A DNA stretch of 22,003 bases from positions 1 to 22,003 of IMG/VR virus record IMGVR_UViG_3300009695_000392; one strand, written 5' to 3'. A program made the position numbers and the translations under genes. The notes beneath the pieces were generated by a model. The model was not told the origin of the DNA, did no database searches, and was given only the letters and a program-made list of their open reading frames with translations. This document shows positions 9,020-22,003 of the stretch, piece by piece; the first letter of the stretch is position 1; each line of letters opens with the position of its first letter. The DNA comes from a virus.

Positions 9020-9301
9020 ATGATAGCCATATACATCTTATCGTCAATAGTTCTATTCTGTATTATAGCCTTAATATGGAATCATTACGACCTTAATAAG
9101 CGTTTTGAGAACACAATTTTGTATGAACTGTACTTCTTTGCCAAAGAGATATTTAAAGCGTTTTGGCGTGATATAAAAGCAGAATACAGAAAAAGAAACT
9201 ACTATCATATTCACAAGTATGAAGTGCCTGAAAAAGTAAATCATCAGCACGAAATAAAAACCATTCAACAAGGGTATAACCAATTTAAAGAAAATAATTG
9301 A
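9020..9301 (+). CDS. Small membrane-anchored protein
   Basis: A 93-residue protein with one N-terminal transmembrane helix (IAIYILSSIVLFCIIALIW, residues 2-20), followed by a basic, aromatic, helical cytoplasmic tail with many Lys, Arg, Tyr and His. The positive tail indicates N-out/C-in insertion in the inner membrane. It lies 5 nt after YopX and before the 170-nt gap. Candidate roles include interference with membrane functions or exclusion, with no direct evidence. Confidence 0.65.
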   Translation: MIAIYILSSIVLFCIIALIWNHYDLNKRFENTILYELYFFAKEIFKAFWRDIKAEYRKRNYYHIHKYEVPEKVNHQHEIKTIQQGYNQFKENN

Positions 9302-9471
9302 AACTATTTTAATTCCTGATACCCTTACAAAAGAAAATCAACTAAACGAAAAATGAAAAATAATCAACATAGCAGCATTGAAAACTTTTACTAAAAAAAC
9401 AGCAAAATACATTGAAAACACATGAACTTTAACTAATTTCCACATACAAATAATTATATATTTAACTCAAA
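9302..9471. other. AT-rich gap before replication genes, with a direct repeat
   Basis: 170 nt of very AT-rich, A-biased sequence between the early genes and the replication initiator. CATTGAAAAC occurs at 9376-9385 and 9410-9419, 34 nt apart. No convincing TAnnTTTG promoter is present, and the only short ATG frame (about 9352-9394, 13 codons) looks accidental. Placement just upstream of an initiator gene makes it a candidate promoter or replication origin region, without proof. Confidence 0.4.
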
Positions 9472-10122
9472 ATGCAAGGCTTTATATCGCTTAATAGAAA
9501 GATCATCAGTCATTGGATATTCAAAGATGACAAAAAATTCAAATGGTGGGTTATTATGCTGCTTGAAGTTAATTATACGGATAATAAATTTAATCTAGGT
9601 GGTGAGATTTTTGACATAAAACGTGGTCAGTCTTGTATTTCTTTAAGATCATGGGCAAAACTTCTTTGTACAACTCCTAAGACAGTACAGGCGTTTTTTA
9701 GATTACTTCAAAAAGATGGCATGATTACGACAAAAATAATTGGAAAAGGGAAACAAAGCACAACCCTTGTAAACATTGAGAATTATAACAGTTATCAGGT
9801 AGATGGTAAACGTGAAGTAACACGCAAAGTAACACACAAAGTAAACGCTAACTACCTACAACTTAATAAAGGAAATAAAGATAATAAAGAAATAATGTAT
9901 AGGGAGTTCGCCCATCTTTCAATTTCAAATGAACAGATCGATAAGTTGAAAGAACAGAATTTCACCATTGATCAAATTGACCATGTTTTAAATAAAATCC
10001 AGAATTTCAAAAAGAATACACAGTATTCAGATTTATACCTTACCGCCCTGAATTGGTTAAAAGATGATAAAATTAAAATAACACCTCAGCAGCAACCTAA
10101 TAAACCATTATTTATTCGATGA
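9472..10122 (+). CDS. Winged-helix replication initiation protein (DnaD/phage O-like)
   Basis: A 216-residue protein of the phage replisome-organiser type. Residues 1-40 (GFISLNRKIISHWIF, then WWVIMLLEVNY) and 50-108 form the winged helix-turn-helix with ISLRSWAKLL, TPKTVQAFFRLLQKDGMI as recognition helix and wing strands to NIENYNSYQ. A polar Asn/Lys linker follows, then a C-terminal helical part (residues 130-205) that includes DLYLTALNWLKD, a segment seen in Bacteroidota phage replication proteins. It should bind the phage origin and load the helicase encoded next, whose ATG overlaps its stop (ATGA). The 170-nt gap before it may hold its promoter or binding sites. Confidence 0.8.
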   Translation: MQGFISLNRKIISHWIFKDDKKFKWWVIMLLEVNYTDNKFNLGGEIFDIKRGQSCISLRSWAKLLCTTPKTVQAFFRLLQKDGMITTKIIGKGKQSTTLVNIENYNSYQVDGKREVTRKVTHKVNANYLQLNKGNKDNKEIMYREFAHLSISNEQIDKLKEQNFTIDQIDHVLNKIQNFKKNTQYSDLYLTALNWLKDDKIKITPQQQPNKPLFIR

Positions 10123-11786
10123 ACTATTCAGACTACAATATTGAAATTCAATCAAACAAAGTTAGTGGTGAGGTAACAACCCGTTGCCCGCAATGTTCAG
10201 ATGATAGGTCAGCAAAAAACCGCAAGGCAAAAGTATTGTCCGTTAATCTTGATAAACAAACTTGGTTTTGTCATCATTGCGGGTTTAAAGGTTTCCTTAA
10301 GCCTGACAAGAAAGTTGAGTACAAAGTCCCTGCATGGAAAAACAATACTGAACTTTCAGATTTAACAGTCAGGTATTTTGAGAGCCGTAAAATATCACAG
10401 GGTACGCTTAAGAGGGCAATGGTAACCGAAGGAATGGAATGGATGCCAAAGGCTGGTAAAGAAATAATTACTATTCAATTCAACTATTTCAGGGATGAAA
10501 AGTTAGTCAATGTCAAGTACAGGGGCAAAGACAAGGATTTCAAAATGTACAAGGACGCTGAATTGATTTTTTATAACCTTGATGGCATTAAGACAGTTGA
10601 TGATGTGTTTATTGTTGAGGGTGAAATGGATGCATTAAGCATTATGGAATTAGGGATAATGAATGTGCTGAGTGTCCCAAATGGTGCAACATTGACTAAT
10701 AATAATCTTTCATATTTGGATAACTGTATTGAGCAAATATTTCATAAAAAAAGATTTATCCTTTGCCTTGACAATGATGCCGCAGGGCGAAAACTAAGAT
10801 CAGATTTAGTTGATCGTTTGGGTATTGAAAGATGTTTGTATGTAGAGTTTGAAGGTGCTAAAGATGCTAATGAGTATTTATGTAAAGAAGATTTAAACAA
10901 ATTGAAAGCTGCGCTTTTATCCCCTAAAGAATTTCCACTTGAAGGTAGTTTTACTATATCTGATATTGCTGATGATATTGAAGATTTATATCATGTCGGT
11001 CTTGATATGGGAGAAAATACAAACATTCCCGGATTTAATCTTCGTTTTGCAAAAGGCTATATTACCACTATCACAGGTATCCCGAGTCATGGTAAATCTG
11101 ATTTCATGGATTACATTGCTTTATCACTTCATAGACATGCACAATGGAGGGGTGCTTTTTACTCGCCTGAAAATAAGCCTACACAGTTACACTTTTCAAA
11201 GATGGCACGAAAAATACTTGGTAAAGGTTGGTATGGCGAGGATAAAATGAGTTGGGAGGAGGTTCAGGGAGTTATGGGATACCTTGACAGGGAAATGTGG
11301 TTTATCAAGCCTGAAAACGATTTCACACTTGAGTCAATATTAAGATCTGTTAAACAGGTAAAAACAAGATATGGACTTGATTTTTTTGTAATAGATGCTT
11401 GGAATAAGCTGGAACATAAGAGGGATGGGAAAAGCGAAACCGATTATGTCAGTATCAGTTATGATTTGATTGAAAGGTTTTGCCAGCGCGAAAATATGCA
11501 CTGCTTCATGATTGCACATCCTACAAAAATGCACCGAAAAAAAGATAGTGAGGTTTATGAAGCCCCTACGTTATACGATATTTCAGGATCAGCTAATTTT
11601 TACAATAAAACTGATAATGGAATAACAATTTACAGGGACTTTGCAAGCGGTAAAACATATGTGCTGGTTACTAAAGTAAAGTTTAGTCATTGGGGAGAAA
11701 CATGTGAATGTGAATACTACTATGATGTAGTGAGTGGGCGTTATTATCAACAAGAGTTTTTAAAGAACGAAACATGGATCAAATAA
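10119..11786 (+). CDS. Bifunctional primase-helicase (TOPRIM plus DnaB-like RecA domain)
   Basis: A 555-residue enzyme built like T7 gp4/Twinkle. Zinc-binding domain: Cys23, Cys26 (CPQC) and Cys51, Cys54 (CHHC). TOPRIM primase fold: VFIVEGEMDALSIMELG with Glu168, and FILCLDNDAAGRKL with Asp218/Asp220. After a linker, the helicase domain has Walker A GIPSHGKS (320-327), YSPEN (motif 1a, about 348), Walker B FFVIDAWNKL (422-431), motif 3 MIAHPTKMHR with His467, and the DISGSANFYNKTDN segment (487-500) preceding the arginine-finger region. It should unwind the fork and make RNA primers for phage DNA synthesis. It overlaps the initiator by 4 nt and the next gene by 13 nt. Confidence 0.93.
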   Translation: MNYSDYNIEIQSNKVSGEVTTRCPQCSDDRSAKNRKAKVLSVNLDKQTWFCHHCGFKGFLKPDKKVEYKVPAWKNNTELSDLTVRYFESRKISQGTLKRAMVTEGMEWMPKAGKEIITIQFNYFRDEKLVNVKYRGKDKDFKMYKDAELIFYNLDGIKTVDDVFIVEGEMDALSIMELGIMNVLSVPNGATLTNNNLSYLDNCIEQIFHKKRFILCLDNDAAGRKLRSDLVDRLGIERCLYVEFEGAKDANEYLCKEDLNKLKAALLSPKEFPLEGSFTISDIADDIEDLYHVGLDMGENTNIPGFNLRFAKGYITTITGIPSHGKSDFMDYIALSLHRHAQWRGAFYSPENKPTQLHFSKMARKILGKGWYGEDKMSWEEVQGVMGYLDREMWFIKPENDFTLESILRSVKQVKTRYGLDFFVIDAWNKLEHKRDGKSETDYVSISYDLIERFCQRENMHCFMIAHPTKMHRKKDSEVYEAPTLYDISGSANFYNKTDNGITIYRDFASGKTYVLVTKVKFSHWGETCECEYYYDVVSGRYYQQEFLKNETWIK

Positions 11787-12034
11787 CATATCAAAAAGTA
11801 ATTGATTCGACTAAACCCGATTCATCAACTAATGAGGTAATAAAAACCTTATGCGAAGATTTGGGCGTTGAATGTAAAACGGTAGAGCCTTATCATTTAA
11901 GACTTTTCAAATTAGGCCGTTTAGATATGCACGTAATGACAATAAATTTAACCACCTGTACCGGCAATAGTTGGTTAATGGGCAATACCTTAACCCAAGT
12001 TAGAAATCAAATAATAAAAAACTTCACATTATGA
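11774..12034 (+). CDS. Small hypothetical protein overlapping the primase-helicase end
   Basis: An 86-residue frame that begins inside the last 13 bases of the primase-helicase gene and ends in an ATGA overlap with the HNH gene. It has a compact alpha/beta look, with an acidic helix (TLCEDLGVECKTV), a basic strand (YHLRLFKLGRLDMHV) and a C-terminal helix. This resembles small phage proteins of unknown function that travel with HNH genes. No catalytic motif is seen. Confidence 0.65.
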   Translation: MDQITYQKVIDSTKPDSSTNEVIKTLCEDLGVECKTVEPYHLRLFKLGRLDMHVMTINLTTCTGNSWLMGNTLTQVRNQIIKNFTL

Positions 12035-12426
12035 AAATAGATAGAATAAAAGTATATGAAAAATATCACGCCCATTGTGCTTATTGCGGAGAATTTATAA
12101 AAATGAAAGATATGCAGGTTGACCATATTATACCACAGAATGAATTTATAATCTACATCAAAAATAATTTTAGAGTTCCTGTTTTCTTGCAACATTTAAC
12201 CGTCAATGACTTAAACCATATTGATAATTTAAACCCATCATGCAGGGTGTGTAATAAATGGAAAAGCACCTTTGATTTAGAGTTGTTTAGAAGCGAATTA
12301 CAAGCACAAGTTGAAAGACTGAATTTGCGTTCTGCTAATTATAGGATGGCTAAAAAATATCAACTCATTCAGGAAAATATAATTCCTATAAAATTCCATT
12401 TTGAAACAATCAACACAATCAAATAA
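12031..12426 (+). CDS. HNH endonuclease
   Basis: A 131-residue HNH nuclease. The zinc ribbon is Cys16-x-x-Cys19 (CAYCG) paired with Cys71-x-x-Cys74 (CRVCN). The ββα-metal motif begins at DHIIP with His32 as general base, Asn68 lies in NLNPS, and CNKWKS closes the motif, matching the common phage 'NL.P.C..CN..K' form. It is short and has no extra DNA-binding domain. HNH enzymes of this kind act in packaging, as free-standing homing nucleases or in host DNA breakdown. Here it is embedded among small genes after the primase, and a NUMOD1-like gene sits about 800 nt downstream, which fits a homing-type history. Confidence 0.88.
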   Translation: MKIDRIKVYEKYHAHCAYCGEFIKMKDMQVDHIIPQNEFIIYIKNNFRVPVFLQHLTVNDLNHIDNLNPSCRVCNKWKSTFDLELFRSELQAQVERLNLRSANYRMAKKYQLIQENIIPIKFHFETINTIK

Positions 12427-12450
12427 TAAACAATTTTAAAAAATAAATAT

Positions 12451-12672
12451 ATGTTACAATATTCAGAATTAACAAAGTCGGTCTATTTTGTAGACTCAAA
12501 AGGCAAAAAACATGATGTCAGTAAAGATTTTTACAATATGATTATACTCAGTATAACGGATGGCAAAGAAATACCTGAATTAAATAATCATGTTAGTAAA
12601 TTGATAGGCATAAATGATATGCATGGTAAACAAATGGCTGCATTTGAAATCCAATTAACAAGAATACTATAA
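12451..12672 (+). CDS. Small hypothetical protein
   Basis: A 73-residue protein with beta-like opening (YSELTKSVYFVDSKGKK) and a helical remainder (DFYNMIILSI, then an Ile/Leu-rich end). No motif is recognised. An A-rich leader and an ATG at the expected distance support translation. Confidence 0.55.
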   Translation: MLQYSELTKSVYFVDSKGKKHDVSKDFYNMIILSITDGKEIPELNNHVSKLIGINDMHGKQMAAFEIQLTRIL

Positions 12673-12675
12673 GCC

Positions 12676-12972
12676 ATGAATTTGTACGCTAAAATTATAT
12701 TCCTGTACTTTAAAAAGCAATTTACATTCCGTGAGATTGTAGACTTTTTAAGTGAAGAATTACAGATGGAAAACGTCCGCGAAGCAATACCCGGTAGATG
12801 GATAGCTAACTATACACCATTAGGAGTAGTTCATCAGGTAATAGGTAATGAAGTAGCAGAGCATTATAGGCAGGGTGAATATAGCAAATTTATAAATAAA
12901 GACCCTGCAAAAAAGTTCAATGAAATTCACAATCAAAAACTTGACGAATATAAACACCAAAAAGTATCATGA
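12676..12972 (+). CDS. Small helical hypothetical protein
   Basis: A 98-residue protein, mostly helical and basic at the end. The N-terminal Leu/Ile/Phe stretch (YAKIIFLYFKKQFTF) is too charged to span a membrane. It continues FREIVDFLSEEL and later a polar helix (FNEIHNQKLDEYKHQK). No known domain. Its stop overlaps the next start by ATGA. Confidence 0.55.
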   Translation: MNLYAKIIFLYFKKQFTFREIVDFLSEELQMENVREAIPGRWIANYTPLGVVHQVIGNEVAEHYRQGEYSKFINKDPAKKFNEIHNQKLDEYKHQKVS

Positions 12973-13220
12973 AAGCCAAAGAATTAAAAAATATTTTAGA
13001 TAAACTATCTCCGAAACAATTGGAGCAAGAACTTTACATAAACATAGAAGAAACACCCTTAAAAGCTATATATAGCGTAGAGGTTATTAAGCATACGTAC
13101 GTGCATTATCCGGGCGAAGGAATATTTAGACATGGCAATAATGCGCAAGGTAGTGAGCCGTGTCCTCCTGAATGGGAGAAAGGAAATATCCATATTCATG
13201 TTGAAGAGATTAAAAAATAA
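12969..13220 (+). CDS. Small hypothetical protein
   Basis: An 83-residue protein coupled to the preceding gene by ATGA. The first 35 residues are a helix (ELKNILDKLSPKQLEQELYI). The rest is a His-, Gly- and Pro-rich beta-like segment ending with alternating Ile/His (GNIHIHVEEI). The local HxH could bind a metal, but no family is recognised. Confidence 0.55.
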   Translation: MKAKELKNILDKLSPKQLEQELYINIEETPLKAIYSVEVIKHTYVHYPGEGIFRHGNNAQGSEPCPPEWEKGNIHIHVEEIKK

Positions 13221-13238
13221 ATAACCTTTAAACTCATC

Positions 13239-13475
13239 ATGAATAAAGGACAAGTTGCCGTTAAAAGAACAGATAAAATCTATTGCTACGATTACAATAG
13301 TCATGAATTTATATGCTGTTACAAAAACATTCCAATTGCCGCCCGTAAGATGAATTTACATTATAAATCCATTTGGGACGTATTGGATAAGACCAACAAA
13401 AAAGGCAGAAGAAAGCACATCTTCCATTCGGTAACATTCAAATTCGTGTACTTAACAACTGAGAAAATAAATTAA
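13239..13475 (+). CDS. Stand-alone NUMOD1-like DNA-binding protein
   Basis: A 78-residue basic protein. Residues about 16-68 follow the NUMOD1 pattern found in homing endonucleases: YDYNSHEFICCYKNIPIAAR is the 'Y-d-x-G-x-F-I-x-x-F-x-S-I-x-E-A-a-x' strand-helix part, MNLHYKSIWDVLDK is the second recognition helix ('g-x-x-x-x-I-x-x-v-L'), and HIFHSVTFKF is the closing strand. NUMOD1 domains normally serve as DNA-binding tails of HNH or GIY-YIG nucleases. Here it occurs alone, 812 nt after a separate HNH gene. It may be a small DNA-binding regulator or the separated tail of a decayed nuclease. The assignment is from pattern recognition. Confidence 0.65.
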   Translation: MNKGQVAVKRTDKIYCYDYNSHEFICCYKNIPIAARKMNLHYKSIWDVLDKTNKKGRRKHIFHSVTFKFVYLTTEKIN

Positions 13476-13483
13476 ATAAAATA

Positions 13484-13711
13484 ATGAAAATAACAATCGA
13501 CCAACCCGAAGAGAAAACTCAAGACATAAAGTTCCCTTGCTTGATGAAGGGAGAGTTAACAAACGATATCTATTTAGTATTTAACAAGAGTACTGGGATA
13601 ACAATTAACAGTGAATTGTGGCCGTCAGGTGCTATGATATCTCAATCTATAAATATCTCATATCTAACCCCACTACCCAAAGGAACAAAGATAATTTTAG
13701 AACAAGAGTAA
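13484..13711 (+). CDS. Small hypothetical beta-rich protein
   Basis: A 75-residue protein with alternating hydrophobic strands (KFPCLMKG, IYLVFNKSTGITI, then SYLTPLPKGTKIILEQE), likely a small beta barrel or sandwich. No Cys clusters, signal or family. It is 8 nt after the NUMOD1-like gene and 4 nt before the YopX-like fragment. Confidence 0.55.
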   Translation: MKITIDQPEEKTQDIKFPCLMKGELTNDIYLVFNKSTGITINSELWPSGAMISQSINISYLTPLPKGTKIILEQE

Positions 13712-13715
13712 AACC

Positions 13716-13760
13716 ATGAGATATAAATTTAGAGGTTTAACCCATAAAGAACTATTGTAA
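13716..13760 (+). pseudogene. Likely YopX 5' fragment (14 codons)
   Basis: The reading frame gives MRYKFRGLTHKELL and then TAA. The KFRG start is the YopX signature (compare KFRGLRFD at 8595 and RKFRAWD at 4746). A 106-codon gene starts 1 nt after this stop, so nothing remains of the rest of a YopX gene. It looks like the stump left after a deletion, or a very short coding leader. Confidence 0.45.
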
Positions 13761-13761
13761 T

Positions 13762-14082
13762 ATGAAAGAAGTAAACTTAACACCAGAACAACAAAAGTTA
13801 TTCAAAAAGCTGAAAAAGGCATATTCAGACTGTGAAAAGGCAGGTGTATTTTTTGTCAATAATTACGGCAGTTTAGAAGGATATAATTCTGAATATGTAG
13901 AAGGATATAGTGATAAAGAAAATTCACATTCACTTGCTTATAATCAATATATCAATTCATTTAAGATTGCTAATGAATGGACTGATGATGCACATTTTCT
14001 ACAATTGACAGAAAAGGGGTATTTGGTTGCAAAAGCAAATGAACAGGCTTATAAAAAGTCAATAGAAGGATTTGATATATGA
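13762..14082 (+). CDS. Hypothetical protein
   Basis: A 106-residue protein with a charged N-terminal helix (EQQKLFKKLKKAYSDCEKAG), then an aromatic/Gly/Asn-rich centre (NNYGSLEGYNSEYVEGYSD) and a helical end (LTEKGYLVAKANEQAYKK). It is likely a small soluble domain of unknown function. It overlaps the next gene by ATGA. Confidence 0.6.
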   Translation: MKEVNLTPEQQKLFKKLKKAYSDCEKAGVFFVNNYGSLEGYNSEYVEGYSDKENSHSLAYNQYINSFKIANEWTDDAHFLQLTEKGYLVAKANEQAYKKSIEGFDI

Positions 14083-14201
14083 AAAAGGTTCTCAAATATT
14101 ATAAGGGCGTAAGCAACAATTGGATAATTGGAACTGAGAAAGAATGTGAGAATTTTATAAAAGACAAAAGAAACAAAAATTGGAATTTTAAATATGAATA
14201 G
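14079..14201 (+). CDS. Very small basic protein
   Basis: A 40-residue Lys/Asn/Trp-rich frame starting on the previous gene's stop and running 8 nt into the NinG-like gene in another frame. The double overlap suggests real translational coupling, but at this size chance remains possible. No motif is recognised. Confidence 0.4.
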   Translation: MKKVLKYYKGVSNNWIIGTEKECENFIKDKRNKNWNFKYE

Positions 14202-14688
14202 CATATACACCCCAAAGAAAATCCCTTGCAAAGTTTGTGAAAGACCGTTTCATCAAATTTCAAGTCTAATAAAGGTTTGTTCAATGAAGTGTGCATATAC
14301 CCTCAAACAATCAAAGAAAGTTCCGCAAATGGCAAATAAACGCTATTCTATACCAAAAAGAAGCGCAAAGACCATAGAGAGAAGTAAAGGCAGAACCGAA
14401 ATAGATGTATTTAATGAGATATGGAATGAACGCCCAAGAATTAGCGAACTATCTGGAATGCCATTGCAATATGATAAAAGCAATATGAAAATGTGGGTAT
14501 GCCAATTCCTTCACGTAATACCAAAAGGAATGAGCAAAAAGTTAAGATTGGAAAAGAGAAATATAATGCTAGGGACGATTTACGAACATAACCACCAAGA
14601 CCAATATCCGGCATTTAACCAAAGAAAACAAGAATTGAATTTAGCGTTTTACCCTGTAAAGCTCAGAGAGAAAAAGAATACATTTTAA
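14194..14688 (+). CDS. NinG/Rap-like recombination nuclease
   Basis: A 164-residue protein. The N-terminal zinc knuckle Cys12-x-x-Cys15 (CKVCERPF) with Cys29-x-x-x-Cys33 (VCSMKC) is the signature of lambda NinG/Rap, which cuts branched DNA. The C-terminal half shows an HNH-like motif in the Bacteroidota form: DVFNEIWNERPRISELSG, then WVCQFLHVIPKG with His107, RNIMLGT with Asn123 and EHNHQ with His132/His134. It likely resolves or trims joint molecules made by the annealing protein. The rest of the family, to my knowledge, has the same division but different spacing. Confidence 0.78.
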   Translation: MNSIYTPKKIPCKVCERPFHQISSLIKVCSMKCAYTLKQSKKVPQMANKRYSIPKRSAKTIERSKGRTEIDVFNEIWNERPRISELSGMPLQYDKSNMKMWVCQFLHVIPKGMSKKLRLEKRNIMLGTIYEHNHQDQYPAFNQRKQELNLAFYPVKLREKKNTF

Positions 14689-14712
14689 ACAGAAAAATAA
14701 ATTAAAAATATC

Positions 14713-14952
14713 ATGAATATAAATCAAGAAATTAAAGCAGTTGAAATGTTGGGCGAAACAATAGGCTACGGAAATATGATGGCTTTGGCTAGTGCAATAT
14801 GGAGAAAGAAGTTAAAAGACTCTGGGATTCCTGAAATTGGAGCTTTTGTCCCTACAATATCATCGTTCATTAAAAAGGGTTATTACAGCAAAGAAAATCA
14901 AGCCCAATATGATAATGAAATATCTAAACATTTTGAATCACAAACACCATGA
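14713..14952 (+). CDS. Small hypothetical protein
   Basis: A 79-residue protein, mostly helical (EIKAVEMLGETIGYGNMMAL) with a Gly/Pro turn in the middle (SGIPEIGAFVPT) and an acidic end. Similar small proteins with a 'GYGNMM.LAS..W' opening are found in Bacteroidota phages, with no function assigned. Overlaps the next gene by ATGA. Confidence 0.6.
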   Translation: MNINQEIKAVEMLGETIGYGNMMALASAIWRKKLKDSGIPEIGAFVPTISSFIKKGYYSKENQAQYDNEISKHFESQTP

Positions 14953-15188
14953 AACAACCAACAATAAAAGATTTTATAGGCAGAGCTAGTTACGATGATT
15001 CTGGAACTATGATATGGGGTATAAGTCAAAATGGCACTTATCAAAAAATATTAGATGTAAGAGGATGGGGAGCTATACAGCATTTATTTAAAACAGAAAA
15101 AGAAGCTATGGATTTTCAAGATAGTTTAGGAGCATTCATAGCGGAAGCAATTAATGAAAAATTAAACAAAATAAACCCCTTAATATAA
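14949..15188 (+). CDS. Small hypothetical protein
   Basis: A 79-residue protein coupled to its predecessor by ATGA. Residues 10-50 look like a small beta sheet with several Gly and Trp (MIWGISQNGTYQKILDVRGW). The C-terminal part is a single helix (FQDSLGAFIAEAINEKL). No family is recognised; the next gene begins 1 nt after its stop. Confidence 0.6.
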   Translation: MKQPTIKDFIGRASYDDSGTMIWGISQNGTYQKILDVRGWGAIQHLFKTEKEAMDFQDSLGAFIAEAINEKLNKINPLI

Positions 15189-15189
15189 A

Positions 15190-15609
15190 ATGAAAACCCA
15201 CACAGAAATATTAAAAGCGCATAATTCTTGGGATGAGAATATGCCAGCGCCTAATAAATTGATGTTATTAGATGCAATGGAAGAATACGCCAATCAATTT
15301 AAACATCAGCCAAAAAAATCTTTACTGGAATGTAAGGATGAAGTAGCAAAATATCGTAGGGGTTGCAATTTTGAAAACATATTAAGAGGAACACATTATA
15401 AGTATATTGAAACTATAATGAACGAATCCGCCGAACTATACTTACAATCTAATACATCAGCACTTAAAAGTGAAATTGAGAAGCAAAAAGAGTTAATAAA
15501 AGAAATGTACGATATGTTGGACAGATGTTCAATGGCAATCAACAGAGATAGCAGATTAGGCGAAGAAATTGAAACTACACTCACAAAAGCTAAACCATTT
15601 ATATCATGA
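15190..15609 (+). CDS. Hypothetical helical protein
   Basis: A 139-residue protein. It begins with a short conserved-looking block (ILKAHNSWDENMPAPNKLML) followed by LDAMEEYANQF, then a basic middle and a coiled-coil stretch (residues 92-115, SEIEKQKELIKEMYDMLDR). The opening resembles short Bacteroidota phage proteins that are annotated only as hypothetical. It overlaps the following gene by ATGA. Confidence 0.6.
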   Translation: MKTHTEILKAHNSWDENMPAPNKLMLLDAMEEYANQFKHQPKKSLLECKDEVAKYRRGCNFENILRGTHYKYIETIMNESAELYLQSNTSALKSEIEKQKELIKEMYDMLDRCSMAINRDSRLGEEIETTLTKAKPFIS

Positions 15610-15845
15610 AAGAAACATTCCACAACGCTAAACAGGTAACAACCGAGGATGAGTATATGCAAGTCCGCAAAGATATGGCAGAAATGACCGCAAAGAATCT
15701 AGGCATTACAGTAGGACAGGCTTATAGGCGTGTCGATGCGTTTAATCAGGTAAAGGATAGGTTAATAAAGCAATTTAAAGCAGAAAACAACGAAATGATG
15801 TATGCTATAATTGTTGATATAGCTATGCAAATTCCACAAATTTAG
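15606..15845 (+). CDS. Small hypothetical protein
   Basis: A 79-residue protein joined to its predecessor by ATGA. It is helical, with MAEMTAKNLGITVGQAYRRVD in residues 23-43 giving a helix-turn-helix-like shape, so DNA binding is possible. The last helix is hydrophobic (MMYAIIVDIAMQI) but too short for a clear membrane span. Confidence 0.55.
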   Translation: MKETFHNAKQVTTEDEYMQVRKDMAEMTAKNLGITVGQAYRRVDAFNQVKDRLIKQFKAENNEMMYAIIVDIAMQIPQI

Positions 15846-15875
15846 AAATTAAGGAACTATAATAACCATAGAAGT

Positions 15876-16121
15876 ATGACACCAAAAGAACACGCCGAAA
15901 AATTAGTTGATAAATTCTATTCATTACAATGGCAAATACATAAATCAACTAGGCAATATAAAATTACAAGTATGTCAAAAAGTGCAGCCAAACAATGCGC
16001 TATAATAGCAGTAGATGAGATACTAAAACTTTCTTACTTTGAAGAATCACAAATGACTGAGGAAGATTCGATGTATAAGAATTATTGGGAGGAAGTAAAG
16101 CAAGAAATCGAAAAACTATAA
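15876..16121 (+). CDS. Small phage protein of the 'AKQCAIIAVDEIL' type
   Basis: An 81-residue protein starting TPKEHAEKLVDKFY and carrying AAKQCAIIAVDEIL (residues about 46-59). These two blocks define a small protein often seen in Bacteroidota phages and prophages, always unnamed. Mostly helical and acidic at the end (YWEEVKQEIEKL). I recognise the pattern but know of no function. Confidence 0.65.
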   Translation: MTPKEHAEKLVDKFYSLQWQIHKSTRQYKITSMSKSAAKQCAIIAVDEILKLSYFEESQMTEEDSMYKNYWEEVKQEIEKL

Positions 16122-16127
16122 AACGCC

Positions 16128-16202
16128 ATGCGCAAGCAAAGAACATCAAACAAGCCCAACGGAGTGCCTCAGTCCGTTATTAAAACTGAAATTAAAAAAT
16201 GA
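16128..16202 (+). CDS. Possible 24-residue basic peptide
   Basis: A very short basic frame (MRKQRTSNKPNGV at the start) lying exactly between two genes, with its stop overlapping the HAD gene's ATG by ATGA. It could be a coupling leader for the HAD gene rather than a functional peptide. Confidence 0.3.
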   Translation: MRKQRTSNKPNGVPQSVIKTEIKK

Positions 16203-16762
16203 AATACAATAAAGTTATATTTTTAGATATTGACGGAGTCATAAATTTAGCTACTGAAAACTTTGATAGGTTTAATAATTTGTCAATGGCTAATTTAGAG
16301 CAAATAATCAAAGAAACCGATGCTTACATTATAATTTCAAGTAGTTGGAGGACTGCCATGTATAAGATGGAAGTCGCCCTTAAAGAACATGGTTTTACCG
16401 ATTTCCTGTGGAGCAAAGTTAAAGGAATTACAATAAGAGGGTATCACGAAACTATCGAAGGTAGTTCTTTGCCAATAGTGCGAGGCAATGAAATAAAGCA
16501 TTGGGTGGACAGGCATATGTCCTATCCTTGGCATGGAAGCCCCGAATTAAAAGAGCAATATAGTTTATATAAAGAAGATGGCTCATTCCAGAAAATGAAG
16601 ACCAATAAGCTAAATGAAAACTACACCTATTTGATACTTGACGATGATTCAGATATGCTTTATGAACAGAGAAATAATTATATTCAAACAGATGTTTACA
16701 AAGGTATAACAGAAGAAGTAAAAATTAAAGCGATAGAAATTCTGAATAAACTCAAGCAATGA
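16199..16762 (+). CDS. HAD-family phosphatase-like protein (HAD_SAK-type)
   Basis: A 187-residue HAD-fold protein. Motif I is FLDIDGVIN with Asp10 (nucleophile) and Asp12. Motif II is YIIISSSWR with Ser47-49 followed by Arg51. The late acidic motif is YLILDDDSDM with Asp148-152. The ending FIQTD-like stretch (NYIQTDVYKGIT) matches HAD domains of the SAK type found in phages and in nucleic-acid repair proteins. The natural substrate may be a nucleotide, a 5'/3' phosphate on nucleic acid, or a modified base; the sequence does not decide. It overlaps its neighbours by ATGA on both sides. Confidence 0.82.
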   Translation: MKYNKVIFLDIDGVINLATENFDRFNNLSMANLEQIIKETDAYIIISSSWRTAMYKMEVALKEHGFTDFLWSKVKGITIRGYHETIEGSSLPIVRGNEIKHWVDRHMSYPWHGSPELKEQYSLYKEDGSFQKMKTNKLNENYTYLILDDDSDMLYEQRNNYIQTDVYKGITEEVKIKAIEILNKLKQ

Positions 16763-16917
16763 CAGTAGATTACATCATAAACCATAAGAAGCATTTATCT
16801 GTAGAAGTACACGTATTCAGCGTTACAAAAACCGGAATGTTTTATTATGTGGGCAATGAAAACCACCCTCATGATCAGTTTAGAGTGCATAAAAGTAAAA
16901 TAAGAAAATCCAATTAA
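16759..16917 (+). CDS. Small hypothetical protein
   Basis: A 52-residue basic, His-rich beta-like protein (LSVEVHVFSVTKTGMFYYVG) coupled to the HAD gene by ATGA. Its last residues are Lys/Arg-rich. No family is recognised. It is followed 5 nt later by the DnaA-like gene. Confidence 0.55.
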   Translation: MTVDYIINHKKHLSVEVHVFSVTKTGMFYYVGNENHPHDQFRVHKSKIRKSN

Positions 16918-16922
16918 CACCA

Positions 16923-17549
16923 ATGAATAAACAACCTATTGACAAGATCATTATTAAAACAGTATGCAGCTTTTATGGAATTTCGGAGAGTGACTTAAAA
17001 TCAAAATCAAAAAAGGGGCATTTGCCGGACGCTAGAGCGATTGCAGCAATGCTTTTAAAGAAGTATTATACAGTTAATCAATATGAAATAAGTAGGATGT
17101 TAGGGCAGTCGAAAAATTGGTTCGCCAATATAATACCAAGAGCCGAAAGCAGGAAGGATTCCAGATTTAATAACAGCATTTTATATTGCATCACAAAAAC
17201 ATCACAAACTCTTGAAAGTGCCGAAAAGTCAATAGGTTTAGAAAATAAAATCATAGTTTATTACACCGAAATTCAGGTAAAAAAAGCTGTATGTGATAAA
17301 TACGAAATTTCATCTGATGATTTAATGGGAAAATCAAAGGTCGGAGTTCTGGAATATGCAAGACCAATGTATGCACTACTTCTTTATTCTCATGTAACCC
17401 AACACAAGGGACTTGTTAGTAGAGCAATGGGCAGAAAAAGCCATGCAAGTGCAGTAGAGTTCATTAATCGTGCAGAAGATTTGATAAGTACAAACACCGC
17501 CTTTAAAACACATTTGCAGCAGATAAGGCAGAAATTAAGCGATAAATAA
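16923..17549 (+). CDS. Protein with two DnaA domain IV-like segments
   Basis: A 208-residue protein with an internal duplication. Segment 1 (about 8-75) and segment 2 (about 115-190) both follow the DnaA C-terminal DNA-binding plan: an opening helix (IIKTVCSFYGIS; VKKAVCDKYEIS), the DL-x-x-KSK motif (DLKSKSK; DLMGKSK), an A-R-x-x-A/Y-x-x-L-L helix (DARAIAAMLLKKY; YARPMYALLLYS), then the G-x-S recognition turn (MLGQSKNWFANII; AMGRKSHASAVEFI). There is no AAA+ ATPase part. It could bind DnaA-box-like sites, acting as a late regulator, a replication modulator or a terminase-site protein; function is inference. Confidence 0.72.
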   Translation: MNKQPIDKIIIKTVCSFYGISESDLKSKSKKGHLPDARAIAAMLLKKYYTVNQYEISRMLGQSKNWFANIIPRAESRKDSRFNNSILYCITKTSQTLESAEKSIGLENKIIVYYTEIQVKKAVCDKYEISSDDLMGKSKVGVLEYARPMYALLLYSHVTQHKGLVSRAMGRKSHASAVEFINRAEDLISTNTAFKTHLQQIRQKLSDK

Positions 17550-17561
17550 TCCGTCGCCATG

Positions 17562-17597
17562 TTGTCGGAATATCAATAAATATTAGAGTTTACTTTG
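17562..17597 (+). promoter_or_regulatory. Weak promoter-like sequence before the packaging-side genes
   Basis: In the 77-nt gap after the DnaA-like gene, TTACTTTG (17590-17597) matches TAnnTTTG at five of six fixed bases. A TTG lies at 17562-17564, but 25 nt away, more than usual. As the largest gap between the replication and packaging modules, it is a natural place for a late promoter. Low support. Confidence 0.25.
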
Positions 17598-17626
17598 TAA
17601 TGCTTAAATAAATTCAATGACTAAAT

Positions 17627-17968
17627 ATGAAATTAAATTCTTCCGACATCAAACATTTAAAGGCGGTTGCATCACAATTGCCGATTTGCTACACATCTGA
17701 TGGGCAAAAAACATTAAGATTGGTTTATGGCTCACAGTTGTTAGAAGCCGGCCACAAAGATGTAAAAGGGAAGCCGATAAATCCGGAAGCTAAATACGCT
17801 GTTCAGACTGGCGAAGGCGTTCAGGTTAATCACTACAAGCATTTAAAGAGATTGTGCGAAGATAAACGCTACAAAGAAGCACAAGAGTATATCGACAGCG
17901 TTCAATCAATCAGTAATCCACACATTGACCTTATGCAATCCATGAATCAAAGAAGACCGACCATTTAA
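17627..17968 (+). CDS. Hypothetical protein at the start of the packaging-side block
   Basis: A 113-residue basic protein. It begins with a helix (SSDIKHLKAVASQLPICY), continues with a beta-like basic part (KTLRLVYGSQLLEAGHKDVKG) and a segment VNHYKHLKRLCEDKRYKEA that looks helical and nucleic-acid friendly. No family is recognised. It stands alone after the 77-nt gap and precedes the exported protein by 1 nt. Confidence 0.6.
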   Translation: MKLNSSDIKHLKAVASQLPICYTSDGQKTLRLVYGSQLLEAGHKDVKGKPINPEAKYAVQTGEGVQVNHYKHLKRLCEDKRYKEAQEYIDSVQSISNPHIDLMQSMNQRRPTI

Positions 17969-17969
17969 T

Positions 17970-18527
17970 ATGAAAAAAATATTCAATACCGGATACACCG
18001 CTTTGCTCCTGATAGCAATGTTATGCATTGCCAAGTGTGCTAATGGGCAGAAACCAACACCAAAGCCTGACACACTTATTGCAGAATGGAATACGTTTGC
18101 ACCCTTCAATATTTTGTCGAATGATAAAGACCCAAACGGGGATAAAATAGTTGTCACATCTTACAAGATTGGCAAAACTACTTATAAGCCGAATGATACA
18201 GTAATGTTAAAGGGTAAAGGGCAAATCATCATAACCACAGCCGGATTAGTATCCTTCACACCCCTGTATAATTTCTACGGTATCATAAACATCAGCTATG
18301 TATGCAATGATGGAACATCAGGCACCGGCAAATCAAGTAAAGTATTTATAAAACTTCATACTGCAGATTACATTTATGATTGTACAAGAGCCTGGACAAC
18401 CAACGGCAGCGAGAGAGGTTATTACACGTTTTCAGGTGATAAATACATGATAGTATTTCCAAGCGGAACAAGGTATATCACTAAACAGGAATATGATTTG
18501 GCCATTAAAAGCATACCCAGAAAATGA
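17970..18527 (+). CDS. Exported protein with an Ig/cadherin-like domain
   Basis: A 185-residue protein with a signal peptide (MKKIFNTGYTALLLIAMLCIA, likely cut after ANG near residue 26; the Cys23 context AKC is not a proper lipobox). Residues about 34-130 read as one Ig-like fold of the cadherin/VCBS-related type: ILSNDKDPNGDKIVV (calcium-binding type loop, 48-62), then SFTPLYNFYGIINISYVCND, the classic 'F.P..nf.G...i.Y...D' ending. The remainder has two Cys and a Tyr-rich segment. It would be a periplasmic or surface-adhesive protein. Its place between replication and packaging genes is unusual. It overlaps the next gene by ATGA. Confidence 0.7.
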   Translation: MKKIFNTGYTALLLIAMLCIAKCANGQKPTPKPDTLIAEWNTFAPFNILSNDKDPNGDKIVVTSYKIGKTTYKPNDTVMLKGKGQIIITTAGLVSFTPLYNFYGIINISYVCNDGTSGTGKSSKVFIKLHTADYIYDCTRAWTTNGSERGYYTFSGDKYMIVFPSGTRYITKQEYDLAIKSIPRK

Positions 18528-18799
18528 AATCACCTAAACGCAGATCGAATGAACTTTACAGCGATGCAATCATGATTTACTTCATCAACAAGACAAATAA
18601 GCCATGTAAAGCACTAGGTGTATATAATTTTCATTTAGGAACTTATGAGATAAGAGGTAAGCAACTAGGCGGTGTAACTAAGTGGAAATATCCATCATAC
18701 AACCCTGTAAGGGAACGAATAAGCCGGGAGCGCAGAGAATTGAATCTTCATGCATTCGGGCTGATGATAAGTTGCCAAAGTTTAAAGAAAGTCGTATAA
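18524..18799 (+). CDS. Small basic hypothetical protein
   Basis: A 91-residue protein with many Arg/Lys residues at both ends (KSPKRRSNEL; RERISRERREL) and a central aromatic beta part (GVYNFHLGTYEIRGKQLGGV). The basic character suggests nucleic acid contact. No family is recognised. It is ATGA-coupled to the exported protein gene. Confidence 0.55.
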   Translation: MKSPKRRSNELYSDAIMIYFINKTNKPCKALGVYNFHLGTYEIRGKQLGGVTKWKYPSYNPVRERISRERRELNLHAFGLMISCQSLKKVV

Positions 18800-18812
18800 A
18801 CCATATTTAACT

Positions 18813-18881
18813 ATGCAAAATTCAGATGATACACCACAGCAAGGCGAAGCTACCAAGAGCACAGAATCCGGATTGGGATAG
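18813..18881 (+). CDS. Possible 22-residue polar peptide
   Basis: A short frame, polar and acidic (MQNSDDTPQQGEATKS at the start), 13 nt after the previous gene and 20 nt before the small terminase gene. The size makes a chance frame likely; it is listed because it fills the only gap here. Confidence 0.25.
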   Translation: MQNSDDTPQQGEATKSTESGLG

Positions 18882-18901
18882 GATATTAAACTCATAAATC
18901 A

Positions 18902-19366
18902 ATGGCACCAAAGAAACCCATAAAGAAAAAGCCCACAGTAAAGAAGCCGGTTAATAAGCCACCTGTTAAGCGTGGAAGACCTAGCGAAGCAAGCGTAGAT
19001 ATATTTAAAGAGATATGCGCGAGAGTATCCGATGGGGAGGATATAATTAAAATATTAAAGAGCGACGATAGATTTCCATGTTGGGGAACTTTTTGTAATT
19101 GGAAAAGGAATGATAAAGAATTATCAGCACTGTACGCACATGCGCGCGAGGATAAGGCAGAAACATTTGAACACAAGATAAATTCAGTTATCAATAATCT
19201 GCAACAAGGTCTAATTGACTCTAATAGTGCGAAGGTTGTAATAGATACACTAAAATGGCAAGCATCTAAATCCTCGCCTAAACAATATGGAGACTCCATA
19301 AAACTATCTGGGGACAAAGATAATCCGATACAAATCGAGCAAATCACAGGTATGAAAATAGATTAA
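18902..19366 (+). CDS. terS: Terminase small subunit
   Basis: A 154-residue protein of the terminase small-subunit type. It begins with a Lys/Pro-rich tail (PKKPIKKKPTVKKPVNKPPV), then a helix-turn-helix: RPSEASVDIFKEICARVSDG, a short-arm turn, and PCWGTFCNWKRNDKELSALY as the recognition region. A helical oligomerisation part follows (residues 78-100), and it ends KVVIDTLKWQASKSSPKQYG, matching the family's 'R.DtrkW.aSKl.PK.YGd' block. It should recognise the phage packaging site and load the large subunit encoded at 19995. Confidence 0.85.
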   Translation: MAPKKPIKKKPTVKKPVNKPPVKRGRPSEASVDIFKEICARVSDGEDIIKILKSDDRFPCWGTFCNWKRNDKELSALYAHAREDKAETFEHKINSVINNLQQGLIDSNSAKVVIDTLKWQASKSSPKQYGDSIKLSGDKDNPIQIEQITGMKID

Positions 19367-19464
19367 AAATTAAACAAAACCATATCGAAGAGTATAATAA
19401 AACCGTAAATAGGTGCCATTTGCTCACCGTGTGGAGACAATAAAAAACTAAACAAAATGAAATT

Positions 19465-19737
19465 ATGGCAAAATTAACCGCATTGGAGATATTAGGTTCT
19501 ATTTCAGTTATAACTAAAGAGGATTTGCATATCAACAAATGTTTGTATACGCTAAAGCGAATTGATTTTATTACAAAAGAAATAATACTGTCGCCTAAAA
19601 ACCCAGAAGGGTATATTCTTAAAAAAGATAAATGGTATCTCATTATTCAGCATGATAGTACATATGAGTTTATTAATATGCCAGAGACATTCGAAATACC
19701 CGAAGGATTGTCACCATGTGCAATACCAGATTTATGA
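19465..19737 (+). CDS. Small hypothetical protein between terminase genes
   Basis: A 90-residue protein lying between the terminase genes. It has a Leu/Ile-rich helix (LTALEILGSISVITKED), a beta-like part (YTLKRIDFITKEIIL), and FEIPEGLSPCAIPDL at the end. No family is recognised. A 98-nt gap precedes it, with an A-rich leader and no clear promoter. Confidence 0.55.
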   Translation: MAKLTALEILGSISVITKEDLHINKCLYTLKRIDFITKEIILSPKNPEGYILKKDKWYLIIQHDSTYEFINMPETFEIPEGLSPCAIPDL

Positions 19738-19741
19738 TATC

Positions 19742-19990
19742 ATGAACGACACATCTAAATGGACATACGCGCAAATAAACGACAGATATAATTATCTGAG
19801 AAAGCAATTTAAGGATACGCAAGATTATTCATTGCGGACTGAGATGTATCAATTGCAGACAGTTCTTGCAAAGGTTGGTAATGTTACAGCAAGGCAAATA
19901 AAAGAACAGGAGATACTAAGCAAAGTCATTTATGGGGTATTTATATTGTCTTTTTTAGGCCTAATCGCTACATATATTTTTCTTAAATAA
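19742..19990 (+). CDS. Small tail-anchored membrane protein
   Basis: An 82-residue protein: residues 1-58 are helical and charged, ending QIKEQEILSK; residues 62-82 are a C-terminal transmembrane helix (IYGVFILSFLGLIATYIFL). I chose the ATG at 19742 because the frame open upstream to 19652 lies inside the preceding gene. The layout suggests a tail-anchored inner-membrane protein. It sits just ahead of the large terminase, where a holin-like or exclusion role could be considered; I see no holin family signature. Confidence 0.6.
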   Translation: MNDTSKWTYAQINDRYNYLRKQFKDTQDYSLRTEMYQLQTVLAKVGNVTARQIKEQEILSKVIYGVFILSFLGLIATYIFLK

Positions 19991-19994
19991 ATAA

Positions 19995-21356
19995 GTGCGC
20001 CAGATCCGATTCAATACAAATGGTAACGATAAGCAGAAAGAGTGCGCAAGGTATTGGCTCGATTCTGAAACTATTGATATTGTATATGGTGGATCAAAAG
20101 GTTCTGCAAAGTCATTCACAGGGGTATCTCTGATATTCGGGGATGCTTTAATATATCCCGAAACGCATTACTTCATTGCCCGTAAGAAACTAAATGACCT
20201 TAGAAAGTTCACAATACCTTCCATACATGAGGTTTTAAAGATATGGGGTGTATCTGAGCAGTACTACAAGTATAATGGCATGGATAATTACTTTGAGTTA
20301 TACAACGGCTCAAAAGTATTCTTATTGGATGCAAAGTATTTACCAAGTGACCCACATTACATGCGATTTGGCTCCATGCAGATAACAAGGGGATGGATAG
20401 AAGAGGCCGGAGAGTTTGAAGAAGAAGCGAAAACAAACCTACAGGCATCCATTGGCCGTTGGAAAAACAAAGAATATAACTTGGCGCCTAAACTACTCCA
20501 AACTTGTAATCCTGCAAAAAACTACCTGTATCGAGAATATTACAAAAAGTTCAAAGAGAACAAGCTCGAATCACATAAAAAGTTTATTCAGGCTTTACCC
20601 GAGGATAATAAGATGTTACCAGGGGATTACATCGCCAACCTTTTAAAGATACTTTCACCAAATGAAATTCAAAGGCTTGTTAAAGGGAATTGGGAATTTG
20701 ACGATAACCCCAACGCCTTATTCGACTATAACGACATACTCAATATCTTTACAAATGAATTCATTAAACCAGATGGGCGTAAATATCTCACAGCAGATAT
20801 AGCTTATGAGGGTTCAGATAGATTTGTTATTGGCATTTGGCATGGCTGGGTATTAAAGAAAATAATCGCCATTGATAAGATTGATGAAACCATGGTAAGT
20901 AAAAAGATTCATGATCTACGAATTGAAAATACAATCACCTTATCAAATGTCGTATATGATGCTGATGGATTAAAGAGATTTGTCAGGCAAAGTGGTAAGA
21001 CAGGGTATTTGCAAGGGGCAAAGGAGTTTCACAATGGTGGCTCACCAATAAAAGTAAATGGCCGGAATGAAAACTTCTTCAATCTGAAAGCCCAATGTTA
21101 TTACTTACTCGCTGAAATGGTTAAAAAGAATGAAATCTATATCGAATGTAAAGAATATCGAAAGCAGATAATTGAAGAATTAGAGCAGATATGTAAACTT
21201 CCGTTAGCAGATGATGGCAAGATAAGATTAGAGCCAAAGGATGCGATAAGGGAGCGTTTAGGCAGAAGCCCAGATTTTGCCGATATGATTATGATGCGCA
21301 TTTTCTTCATGTTGAAAAGTGATTATGTAATTGGGAGTGTAAAGGCGACGGTATGA
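19995..21356 (+). CDS. terL: Terminase large subunit (packaging ATPase/nuclease)
   Basis: A 453-residue terminase motor and nuclease. Start: GTG at 19995, as an in-frame stop precedes it and no ATG fits. Walker A is VYGGSKGSAKS (about 30-40); the family uses a G-rich loop with KS. Walker B reads ITRGWIEEAG with Glu136-137, and the coupling motif is TCNP (170-173). The RNase H-like nuclease part has KYLTADIAYEGSDRF with Asp268, VVYDADGL with Asp322/Asp324, and the late SPDFADMIMMR with Asp427/Asp430. The order and lengths fit a complete enzyme. It overlaps the metallopeptidase-like gene by ATGA. Confidence 0.95.
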   Translation: MRQIRFNTNGNDKQKECARYWLDSETIDIVYGGSKGSAKSFTGVSLIFGDALIYPETHYFIARKKLNDLRKFTIPSIHEVLKIWGVSEQYYKYNGMDNYFELYNGSKVFLLDAKYLPSDPHYMRFGSMQITRGWIEEAGEFEEEAKTNLQASIGRWKNKEYNLAPKLLQTCNPAKNYLYREYYKKFKENKLESHKKFIQALPEDNKMLPGDYIANLLKILSPNEIQRLVKGNWEFDDNPNALFDYNDILNIFTNEFIKPDGRKYLTADIAYEGSDRFVIGIWHGWVLKKIIAIDKIDETMVSKKIHDLRIENTITLSNVVYDADGLKRFVRQSGKTGYLQGAKEFHNGGSPIKVNGRNENFFNLKAQCYYLLAEMVKKNEIYIECKEYRKQIIEELEQICKLPLADDGKIRLEPKDAIRERLGRSPDFADMIMMRIFFMLKSDYVIGSVKATV

Positions 21357-21781
21357 GTAAGCGAGTAAAAATAATAAGATATTTGGATTGTGGTATTTTC
21401 CCATCAACTGTTTTGTTTAGTAATGGATTCACATATGATGAACTCTATAAGCACTTAAAAAAGACAGGGGCAAAGGAATGGCTGTACGGGTTGGAAGGAG
21501 ATAAGAAAACCATTGATAATGGGAAGTTCTTTGCGTTATACAGAAATATTGAGCATAAAGGGCATTCAATACAACTGTTTTATATTATATTCACAGAGTC
21601 TTTTAAATTTAACGATTCAAGTTATACTATATTGGCGCATGAGATTATACATATACTCCAATTTATGTTGCCTACATTGAATGTGGATATGGTTATAGAG
21701 ATGGAATCTACCGCCTATCTTCATTCTCATTTAATGAATCAATGCCTGAAAGAATTAAGGGAATCATCCAATAAAAAATAA
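21353..21781 (+). CDS. HExxH zinc metallopeptidase-like protein
   Basis: A 142-residue protein. ILAHEIIHILQFMLP has the zinc-peptidase motif H96-E97-x-x-H100 in a helix. Downstream, EMESTAYLHSHLM supplies Glu118 as a likely third ligand, in the family's 'E..AYL..yL' helix. No signal peptide is seen, so it is likely cytosolic. Small proteins of this type accompany the large terminase in Bacteroidota phages; a protease role in assembly or against host proteins is possible but untested. Its ATG overlaps the terL stop by ATGA. Confidence 0.75.
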   Translation: MSKRVKIIRYLDCGIFPSTVLFSNGFTYDELYKHLKKTGAKEWLYGLEGDKKTIDNGKFFALYRNIEHKGHSIQLFYIIFTESFKFNDSSYTILAHEIIHILQFMLPTLNVDMVIEMESTAYLHSHLMNQCLKELRESSNKK

Positions 21782-21787
21782 AGGATT

Positions 21788-22003
21788 ATGATAAATTCAG
21801 ATGGGTATAAAATGCAAGAACTTACCGAAGATGTGACTTTACCATATTTAGGATATAATTTTAGCGTTAAAAGGAATTATTGGTATTGTATACAAACGGG
21901 GGAAAGATTAATAACACCCGAACAAGAAGAAAAAGTGATTGATGATTTAAAAAGCAAGCATGATGATTTCATTACCATGATATGCTGCGGATTTAGTGGA
22001 TAA
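21788..22003 (+). CDS. Small hypothetical protein at the window end
   Basis: A 71-residue protein whose stop codon is the last three bases of the window, so it is complete. It has an aromatic beta-like front (YLGYNFSVKRNYWYCIQTG), an acidic helix (TPEQEEKVIDDLKSK) and a Cys-Cys pair near the end (MICCGF). The YWYCIQTGE turn recalls the zinc-domain/HTH junction of MqsA-like antitoxin proteins, but the required Cys pairs are missing, so I leave it unnamed. Confidence 0.55.
   Translation: MINSDGYKMQELTEDVTLPYLGYNFSVKRNYWYCIQTGERLITPEQEEKVIDDLKSKHDDFITMICCGFSG

Follow-up and report, generated by a model that had tools for sequence, protein, structure and literature searches.

A tandem DnaA domain IV protein without an AAA+ part, encoded between the early genes and the terminase genes of a probable Bacteroidota phage

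INTRODUCTION

What does a phage do with two copies of the DnaA DNA-binding domain that come without the ATPase of the initiator? This question is raised by a gene at positions 16923 to 17549 (plus strand) of a 22,003-base virus record, IMGVR_UViG_3300009695_000392, which is part of a phage genome and is referred to here, at its full length, as the window. Little is known about the regulators that control late genes in phages of Bacteroidota. The gene product, P0001 (208 aa, pI 9.6), had been predicted from the DNA letters to be a tandem of DnaA domain IV units that could read host or phage DnaA boxes in pairs, with blocking of host initiation, regulation of phage transcription, or marking of the origin as suggested roles. 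Here, the domain make-up, origin, relatives, DnaA-box residues, and surroundings of P0001 are examined, and the functions that these features may point to are weighed.

RESULTS

Profile searches with Pfam and NCBIfam were used to define the domains of P0001. Bac_DnaA_C (PF08299) was found to match the protein twice, with an E-value of 6.8e-18 and 64.9 bits over the whole protein, and this two-domain finding is well beyond chance. The N-terminal unit (aa 6-95; 16938 to 17207, plus strand) scored 40.9 bits by itself, above the curated PF08299 cut-off of 31.5, while the C-terminal unit (aa 114-208; 17262 to 17546, plus strand) scored 28.0 bits (E-value 2.2e-6), below this cut-off. Both halves are basic, with pI values of about 9.9 (N) and 9.4 (C), and are separated by an acidic linker (aa 96-113; 17208 to 17261, plus strand) delimited by its charge and low model confidence. 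The NCBIfam DnaA models aligned to P0001 only via their C-terminal part, reaching 63 bits compared with the cut-offs of 344 and 410 set for the full initiator, and no AAA+ family was detected in the protein (Pfam E-value up to 10; NCBIfam E-value up to 1). The DL-x-x-KSK and A-R-x5-L-L motifs claimed for the two halves in the original prediction were both present in each half of the translation.

The predicted structure was found to agree with this assignment. The best AlphaFold single-sequence model (mean pLDDT 75.3, pTM 0.54) displayed two helical units joined by an uncertain linker at about residues 95-112, with pLDDT below 50 at 95-103 and 105-112; the five single-sequence models differ widely, with mean pLDDT values of 75.3, 67.4, 49.5, 38.2, and 36.5. 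When the model was compared with known structures by VIA-align 2, residues 114-207 superposed on E. coli DnaA domain IV (1j1v) with a Z-score of 14.8 and an rmsd of 1.9 over 94 of 94 residues, and residues 1-94 superposed on the DnaA domain IV of 8btg_B with a Z-score of 13.2 and an rmsd of 2.4 over 94 residues; the best non-DnaA fold reached a Z-score of 5.7. Each half therefore superposes on DnaA domain IV, as had been anticipated, albeit on a predicted model. A second model, built from an 11-row alignment whose rows cover mainly the C half, was good for the C half (block means 80-95) and poor for the N half (40-68). Foldseek searches with the P0001 model gave no match at an E-value of 0.001 or better in PDB and BFVD; the top high-probability PDB rows were DnaA, and several BFVD entries that are 170-211 aa in length and aligned over long stretches (A0A6J5T805, A0A516MI70, and R9ZXH4, among others) could be tandem too. 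ClpC was also considered as a relative after a phmmer search of PDB sequences (E-value 0.009, with DnaA 1j1v at 0.54) and was taken as a chance match. Compared with DnaA domain IV (PDB 1j1v, 3pvp, and 8btg), both halves of P0001 share the fold, Arg407, and the helix-turn-helix, whereas P0001 differs from DnaA in having two copies, in lacking domains I-III, and in its changed DnaA-box contact residues. Overall, the Pfam matches to both halves, the superposition of the predicted model, and the absence of AAA+ confirm P0001 as a pair of DnaA domain IV units connected through a short, acidic stretch and lacking AAA+.

The relationship between the two halves was then analyzed. In a phmmer search of 17,928 translated fragments, each half retrieved the other at E-values of 5e-6 to 7e-6. 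The halves share 32-34% identity, and their best identity to other rows with at least 60 aligned columns was 28% (N half) and 25% (C half). In a 99-row tree, the two halves were placed as sisters on a long branch with support of 97/96, a grouping that is less than certain because columns were few, branches long, and bootstrap values not yet stable. Since the two halves group together, the simplest reading is that P0001 arose by internal duplication of one DnaA domain IV unit. The C half also matched the C-terminus of DnaA in one Sphingobacterium genome directly (E-value 1.9e-6).

Tandem relatives were sought in several collections, and no second example of the doubled form came from those searched. 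A single copy of the P0001 sequence is known, and an identical contig (L003) found via its terminase starts downstream of the gene. Viral contigs yielded no tandem relative with the whole protein, the two halves aligned, or each half as queries, nor did genome contigs and phages; the pattern-based scans for relatives detect close relatives only. The plasmid search gave 50 records at an E-value of up to 1; the matches listed had E-values of 0.3, mostly carried the label gspC, and were taken as due to chance. A single match at an E-value of up to 1e-6 was obtained from 395 genomes of one phylum, a 491-aa frame that was taken as host DnaA, and 397 genomes of one family gave no tandem relative in a search run without a positive control, whose empty result by itself shows nothing. 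When PF08299 was searched over 247 genomes, the matches listed were filled by host DnaA, which says little on prophage copies. Nine of 41 records related by terminase or primase carried PF08299 at an E-value of up to 1, eight of them above the cut-off, with one match each.

Single DnaA domain IV proteins of phages, by comparison, are common and already annotated. All 80 of the single-domain IMG/VR loci examined have one open reading frame with one domain, and two domains were found in none; they represent the best 80 out of 432 that were confirmed from 600 stretches, and the collection contains further ones. They were fetched by a pattern requiring [RK]DH[SAT]T[VI], their frames measure 105-482 aa, of which the longest may represent complete DnaA, and the profile used on them includes both P0001 halves, whose scores are thereby inflated. 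Querying phage records with a host DnaA domain IV gave 72 matching records, 60 of them among the matches listed; at least some look like bacterial dnaA from misfiled entries, so this number does not count phage genes. Annotated single-domain relatives include Cellulophaga phages phi19:1 gp042 and phi13:2 gp011, Polaribacter phage Freya_1 gp53, Tenacibaculum phage Gundel_1 gp036, and Flavobacterium phage hattifnatt9-1 gp29. Like P0001, these proteins, which come from phages of Flavobacteriia, are small and based on DnaA domain IV; unlike P0001, they have one domain, and the DHTT-type signature is kept in the 80 loci, where it was required by the search pattern. A hypothetical protein of Leeuwenhoekiella phage Arctus_1 (WYD67201; L227, 5965-6426), encoded directly after a DNA replication gene, matched PF08299 at an E-value of 1.1e-17. 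An open reading frame before terS in L208 was dropped as a relative, having scored 20.6 bits with our own profile but no Pfam match; it remains a row in the 80-locus profile alignment, the 99-row tree, and the 11-row alignment. Among the matches listed, open PubMed Central text held no report of a tandem DnaA domain IV phage protein. As far as these searches reach, they bear out the expectation that single-domain proteins are known and that the tandem is less explored.

The residues by which DnaA reads its box were examined next in both halves (E. coli numbering). DnaA Arg399 and Ser400 are described as binding the minor groove, and Thr435 as making base contacts (PMC9638019). Arg399 was found to be replaced by Lys in both halves of P0001, whereas 78 of the 80 phage relatives and all eight bacterial DnaA proteins have Arg; Gly426 was replaced by Ser in both halves, compared with Gly in 80/80 and 8/8, respectively; and Asp433 was replaced by Ser in both halves, compared with Asp in seven of eight bacterial DnaA proteins. 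Among the 80 phage relatives, conservation of D433, H434, and T436 was built into the search pattern, while that of R399, R407, and G426 was not. The N half lacks His434 and Thr436, and its recognition segment, GQSKNWFANII, deviates from the DnaA signature; the C half has His and Ser at these positions, such that its segment, GRKSHASAVEF, retains the His434 equivalent. Arg399 combined with DHTT-type residues, the combination used here to define a DnaA-box reader, is thus lacking in both halves, and P0001 appears to retain the fold and basic charge but not the DnaA-box reading head.

DnaA boxes were also counted. The window has no exact TTATNCACA in its 22,003 bases; when one mismatch was allowed, 33 sites were counted, without excess over the 35.7 expected. 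In the 80 single-domain loci, TTATNCACA was found 36 times compared with 54 expected (ratio 0.67); the corresponding counts were 48 compared with 60 (ratio 0.80) in phage loci that were related by terminase and lacked a DnaA_C gene, and 66 compared with 63 (ratio 1.05) in the terminase loci of genome contigs. TTATCCACA alone was detected 16 times in the DnaA_C loci, with 10 expected. No iteron-like family of at least three copies was found in the 22 kb outside a repeat gene (one scan omitted 3704-4300), and the 9-mer clusters among the matches listed sit in this gene, which encodes an Ala/Tyr repeat. The gene product (3704-4300) is an Ala/Tyr/Asp-rich repeat protein with a weak likeness to the Imm5 immunity protein, below the Pfam cut-off. 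A TATTCCACA array recurring every 21 nt in L015 (14792-15070) was considered as DnaA-box iterons and proved to be a 7-codon repeat of a 495-aa protein. With the box-contact residues lost in both halves and no exact TTATNCACA in the window, the idea of a double reader of host or phage DnaA boxes is weakened.

The gene surroundings were analyzed to place P0001 within the phage. Its layout looks temperate in type, and its host probably belongs to the Bacteroidota: the closest named-phage terminase matches were to Flavobacterium, Polaribacter, Bacteroides, and Cellulophaga phages, and the best genome matches were to Bacteroidota, with weaker ones extending to other groups. The window encodes, in order, an S24 CI-like repressor (1376-2071, minus strand), a KilA-N/ANT protein, a weak Rad52-like match, a replication module of a DnaD-like helicase loader and a primase/helicase (9472 to 11786, plus strand; PHROG 2514 and 239), a NinG-like protein (14194 to 14688, plus strand; Pfam 24.6 bits, just below the cut-off of 25.4), P0001, three small genes, the small terminase subunit (terS; 18902 to 19366, plus strand; PF20901, E-value 1.7e-22), and the large terminase subunit (terL; 19995 to 21356, plus strand; PF04466, E-value 1.2e-10). 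The P0001 gene thus lies at the end of the early block, 5.1 kb downstream of the primase/helicase, and precedes terS by 1.35 kb and terL by 2.45 kb on the same strand. When 10 neighboring proteins were searched (Pfam for all, PHROGs for nine), no late regulator was recognized, and several had no match of any kind. Just upstream of P0001, at 16199-16762, is a HAD_SAK_2 protein (Pfam: HAD domain in Swiss Army Knife RNA repair proteins). A further protein between the early block and the terminase genes (17970-18527) starts with a signal-like stretch and also contains a bacterial Ig/cadherin-like domain.

The single-domain loci were compared with this layout and found to vary. terL was detected in 15 of the 80 loci, always downstream and on the same strand at 2.0-7.9 kb, with a distance of more than 4 kb in 13 of the 15; in L012 and L170, it was 6.5 and 8.8 kb downstream. 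Relatives near the terminase genes were found in L015 (Pfam 25.9 bits, below the cut-off), one gene upstream of terS, and in L022, L024, L029, and L031 (two near-identical pairs), 1.4-3.0 kb upstream of terL. The order of primase/helicase, NinG, and DnaA_C is common to the window and the primase relatives L038, L039, and L042, in which the single DnaA_C gene lies 4.8-7.0 kb past the primase/helicase and 0.3-1.0 kb past NinG, and whose DnaA_C proteins are near-identical. In phage lambda, Q follows ninG, and the position of DnaA_C after NinG in these four phages resembles this slot. In L294, L302, L305, and L310, NinG is downstream of the DnaA_C gene rather than upstream. The primase/helicase was located 0-1.9 kb upstream of the DnaA_C gene in 10 of the 80 loci: the single DnaA-C gene comes directly after DnaD and the primase/helicase, with touching or overlapping frames, in L252, L253, L266, and L282. 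It lies past the primase/helicase by 0.75-1.2 kb in L272, L274, L275, L278, and L290, while the distance in L270 is 1.9 kb. DnaD was not detected in L270 and L278, whose sequence starts inside or near the primase. A DnaD-like loader, a primase/helicase, and DnaA-C are a recurrent replication module in IMG/VR phages. In annotated flavophages, the single-domain gene is located in or near early DNA-metabolism genes (e.g., NinB, SSB, DnaC-like, or primosomal) rather than beside the terminase.

Directly 3' of the P0001 gene is a 77-nt gap (17550 to 17626), a candidate target region that was scanned for transcription signals. The gap had no match to the Bacteroidota promoter pattern (a consensus, with up to two mismatches allowed) and no terminator. 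Across the window, the same pattern was found at 69 sites compared with 84 by chance. One site with a single mismatch, at 2163-2193, is made plausible only by its location, between the repressor and cro-like genes, which diverge. From 12000 to 20000, 32 sigma-70-type sites (37.3 expected) and one terminator (4.2 expected) were detected, and Rfam gave no match. A perfect 12-nt inverted repeat, ACCGCCTTTAAA, was identified around the gap, with its left arm at 17496 to 17507 (plus strand) and its complement at 17656 to 17667 (minus strand). Its center (17581.5) falls within the gap (center 17588), and the repeat overlaps the 3' end of the P0001 gene and the start of the next gene, such that both arms are coding. 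Within 4301-22003, it was the sole repeat of its kind (12 nt, at least five G/C, within 400 nt); 40 simulated sequences had a mean of 0.075 such repeats, with one or more in 2 of the 40, by criteria that were fixed after the repeat had been seen. No further copy of the 12-nt arm was found in the window with up to two mismatches, and none of the 77 loci examined, out of 80, had an inverted repeat straddling the gene end. The ACCGCCTTTAAA repeat is thus a candidate operator, a lead rather than a result.

DISCUSSION

P0001, for which two domain IV units, sister halves, altered DnaA-box residues, and the position in the phage are shown here, probably acts on the virus itself, by turning on its genes or marking its DNA, and not on the DnaA sites of the host. 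We tentatively favor, at somewhat under an even chance, a phage-specific DNA binder with two sites that acts at the early/late boundary and works like the DnaA-like domain of GafA, an activator of the terminase operon in a gene transfer agent. P0001 would be expressed from the last part of the early operon, each unit would act as a basic helix-turn-helix, and the pair would read two phage-specific sites other than canonical DnaA boxes. Its binding may take place in or close to the gap that separates its gene from the packaging genes, and there P0001 would most likely activate or time late transcription, as suggested for the DnaA-like domain of GafA upstream of the terminase. DNA binding by P0001, its sites, and the direction of regulation are what we infer here.

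The precedent is GafA of the Rhodobacter capsulatus gene transfer agent (GTA), which has an N-terminal DnaA-like DNA-binding domain (PMC9638019, PMC6363796). Mutations in this domain impair GTA production, its authors judge it likely essential for GTA promoter activation, and GafA binding is cited at 75-125 bases upstream of the TerS start (PMC9638019); in split versions of GafA, a separate small gene encodes the DnaA-like part (PMC9638019, PMC6363796). In Caulobacter, GafY and IHF are reported to act from far upstream of the GTA promoter, with GafY modeled as contacting RpoD and GafZ described as an anti-terminator (PMC11150451); where GafY is so described, it is not called DnaA-like. P0001 is matched to GafA by domain class only, as a DnaA-like DNA-binding domain in a phage-type regulator. 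GafA combines one DnaA-like domain with a sigma-like C-terminal region, whereas P0001 has two DnaA-like domains and no such region recognized; the GafA-type C-terminal region (DUF6456) was found neither in P0001 (Pfam E-value up to 10) nor in the 10 neighbors (E-value up to 1).

Beyond this precedent, the role in late transcription is consistent with two basic, sister units of domain IV, a gene shortly before terS and terL on their strand, an order past NinG that is shared with three other loci and resembles the Q slot of lambda, relatives near the terminase in five loci, the lack of another recognized late regulator among the 10 neighbors, and an inverted repeat around the gap that is rare by chance. 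However, the gap has no recognizable promoter or terminator, three genes separate P0001 from terS, and no partner akin to the GafA C-terminal region was recognized. In addition, the annotated single-domain relatives are near early DNA-metabolism genes, terL is mostly distant in the other loci, and four of them have NinG on the other side of DnaA_C. The inverted repeat was chosen after the fact, has coding arms, and recurs neither in the window nor at other gene ends, and the one P0001 sequence affords no conservation comparison. A more specific version, that P0001 loops the DNA between the inverted sites at 17496-17507 and 17656-17667 to throw an early-to-late switch, from the Q slot and with an origin independent of GafA, is clearly unlikely.

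The main alternative is a role in replication, in which P0001 would bind the phage origin and help the DnaD-like loader bring in the primase/helicase, as a split initiator without an ATPase. The location of the single-domain gene at or near the primase/helicase in 10 of 80 loci argues for such a role, as do the NinB, SSB, DnaC-like, or primosomal neighbors of the annotated flavophage genes. P0001 is instead far past the primase/helicase at the end of the early block, its N half is without a recognition signature, and the window has neither an iteron-like family outside the repeat gene nor an exact DnaA box, though the origin may lie outside the window because this record is part of a phage genome. 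Since phages with the same replication pair carry the gene beside the primase/helicase, this role is kept as somewhat unlikely rather than dismissed. P0001 could also regulate only its own operon, as a repressor or auto-regulator with no part in late-gene expression or replication. The overlap of the inverted repeat with the 3' part of the P0001 gene and the first part of the following gene would suit this role, which is nonetheless clearly unlikely: even with two mismatches allowed, the window contains no further copy of the 12-nt arm, so none is present at the promoter region of the early operon. Least likely is that P0001 antagonizes host DnaA by occupying chromosomal DnaA boxes to block or reset host initiation. 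The C half is recognizably DnaA by its Sphingobacterium match and keeps His434 and a Ser at 436, but Arg399, Gly426, and Asp433 are changed in both halves and the N half is without the DHTT signature.

Overall, P0001 doubles a type of phage protein that is already known; the domain finding is real and well supported, and the function is drawn from comparison. In the public-record notes examined, the names given to phage DnaA-C proteins, such as 'replication initiation protein', rest on sequence similarity alone. A tandem that lacks the DnaA-box residues offers a clean test case for whether DnaA-C proteins start replication or control transcription. Furthermore, if the looping described above were true, P0001 would be a late regulator built from the DNA-reading domain of a replication initiator.
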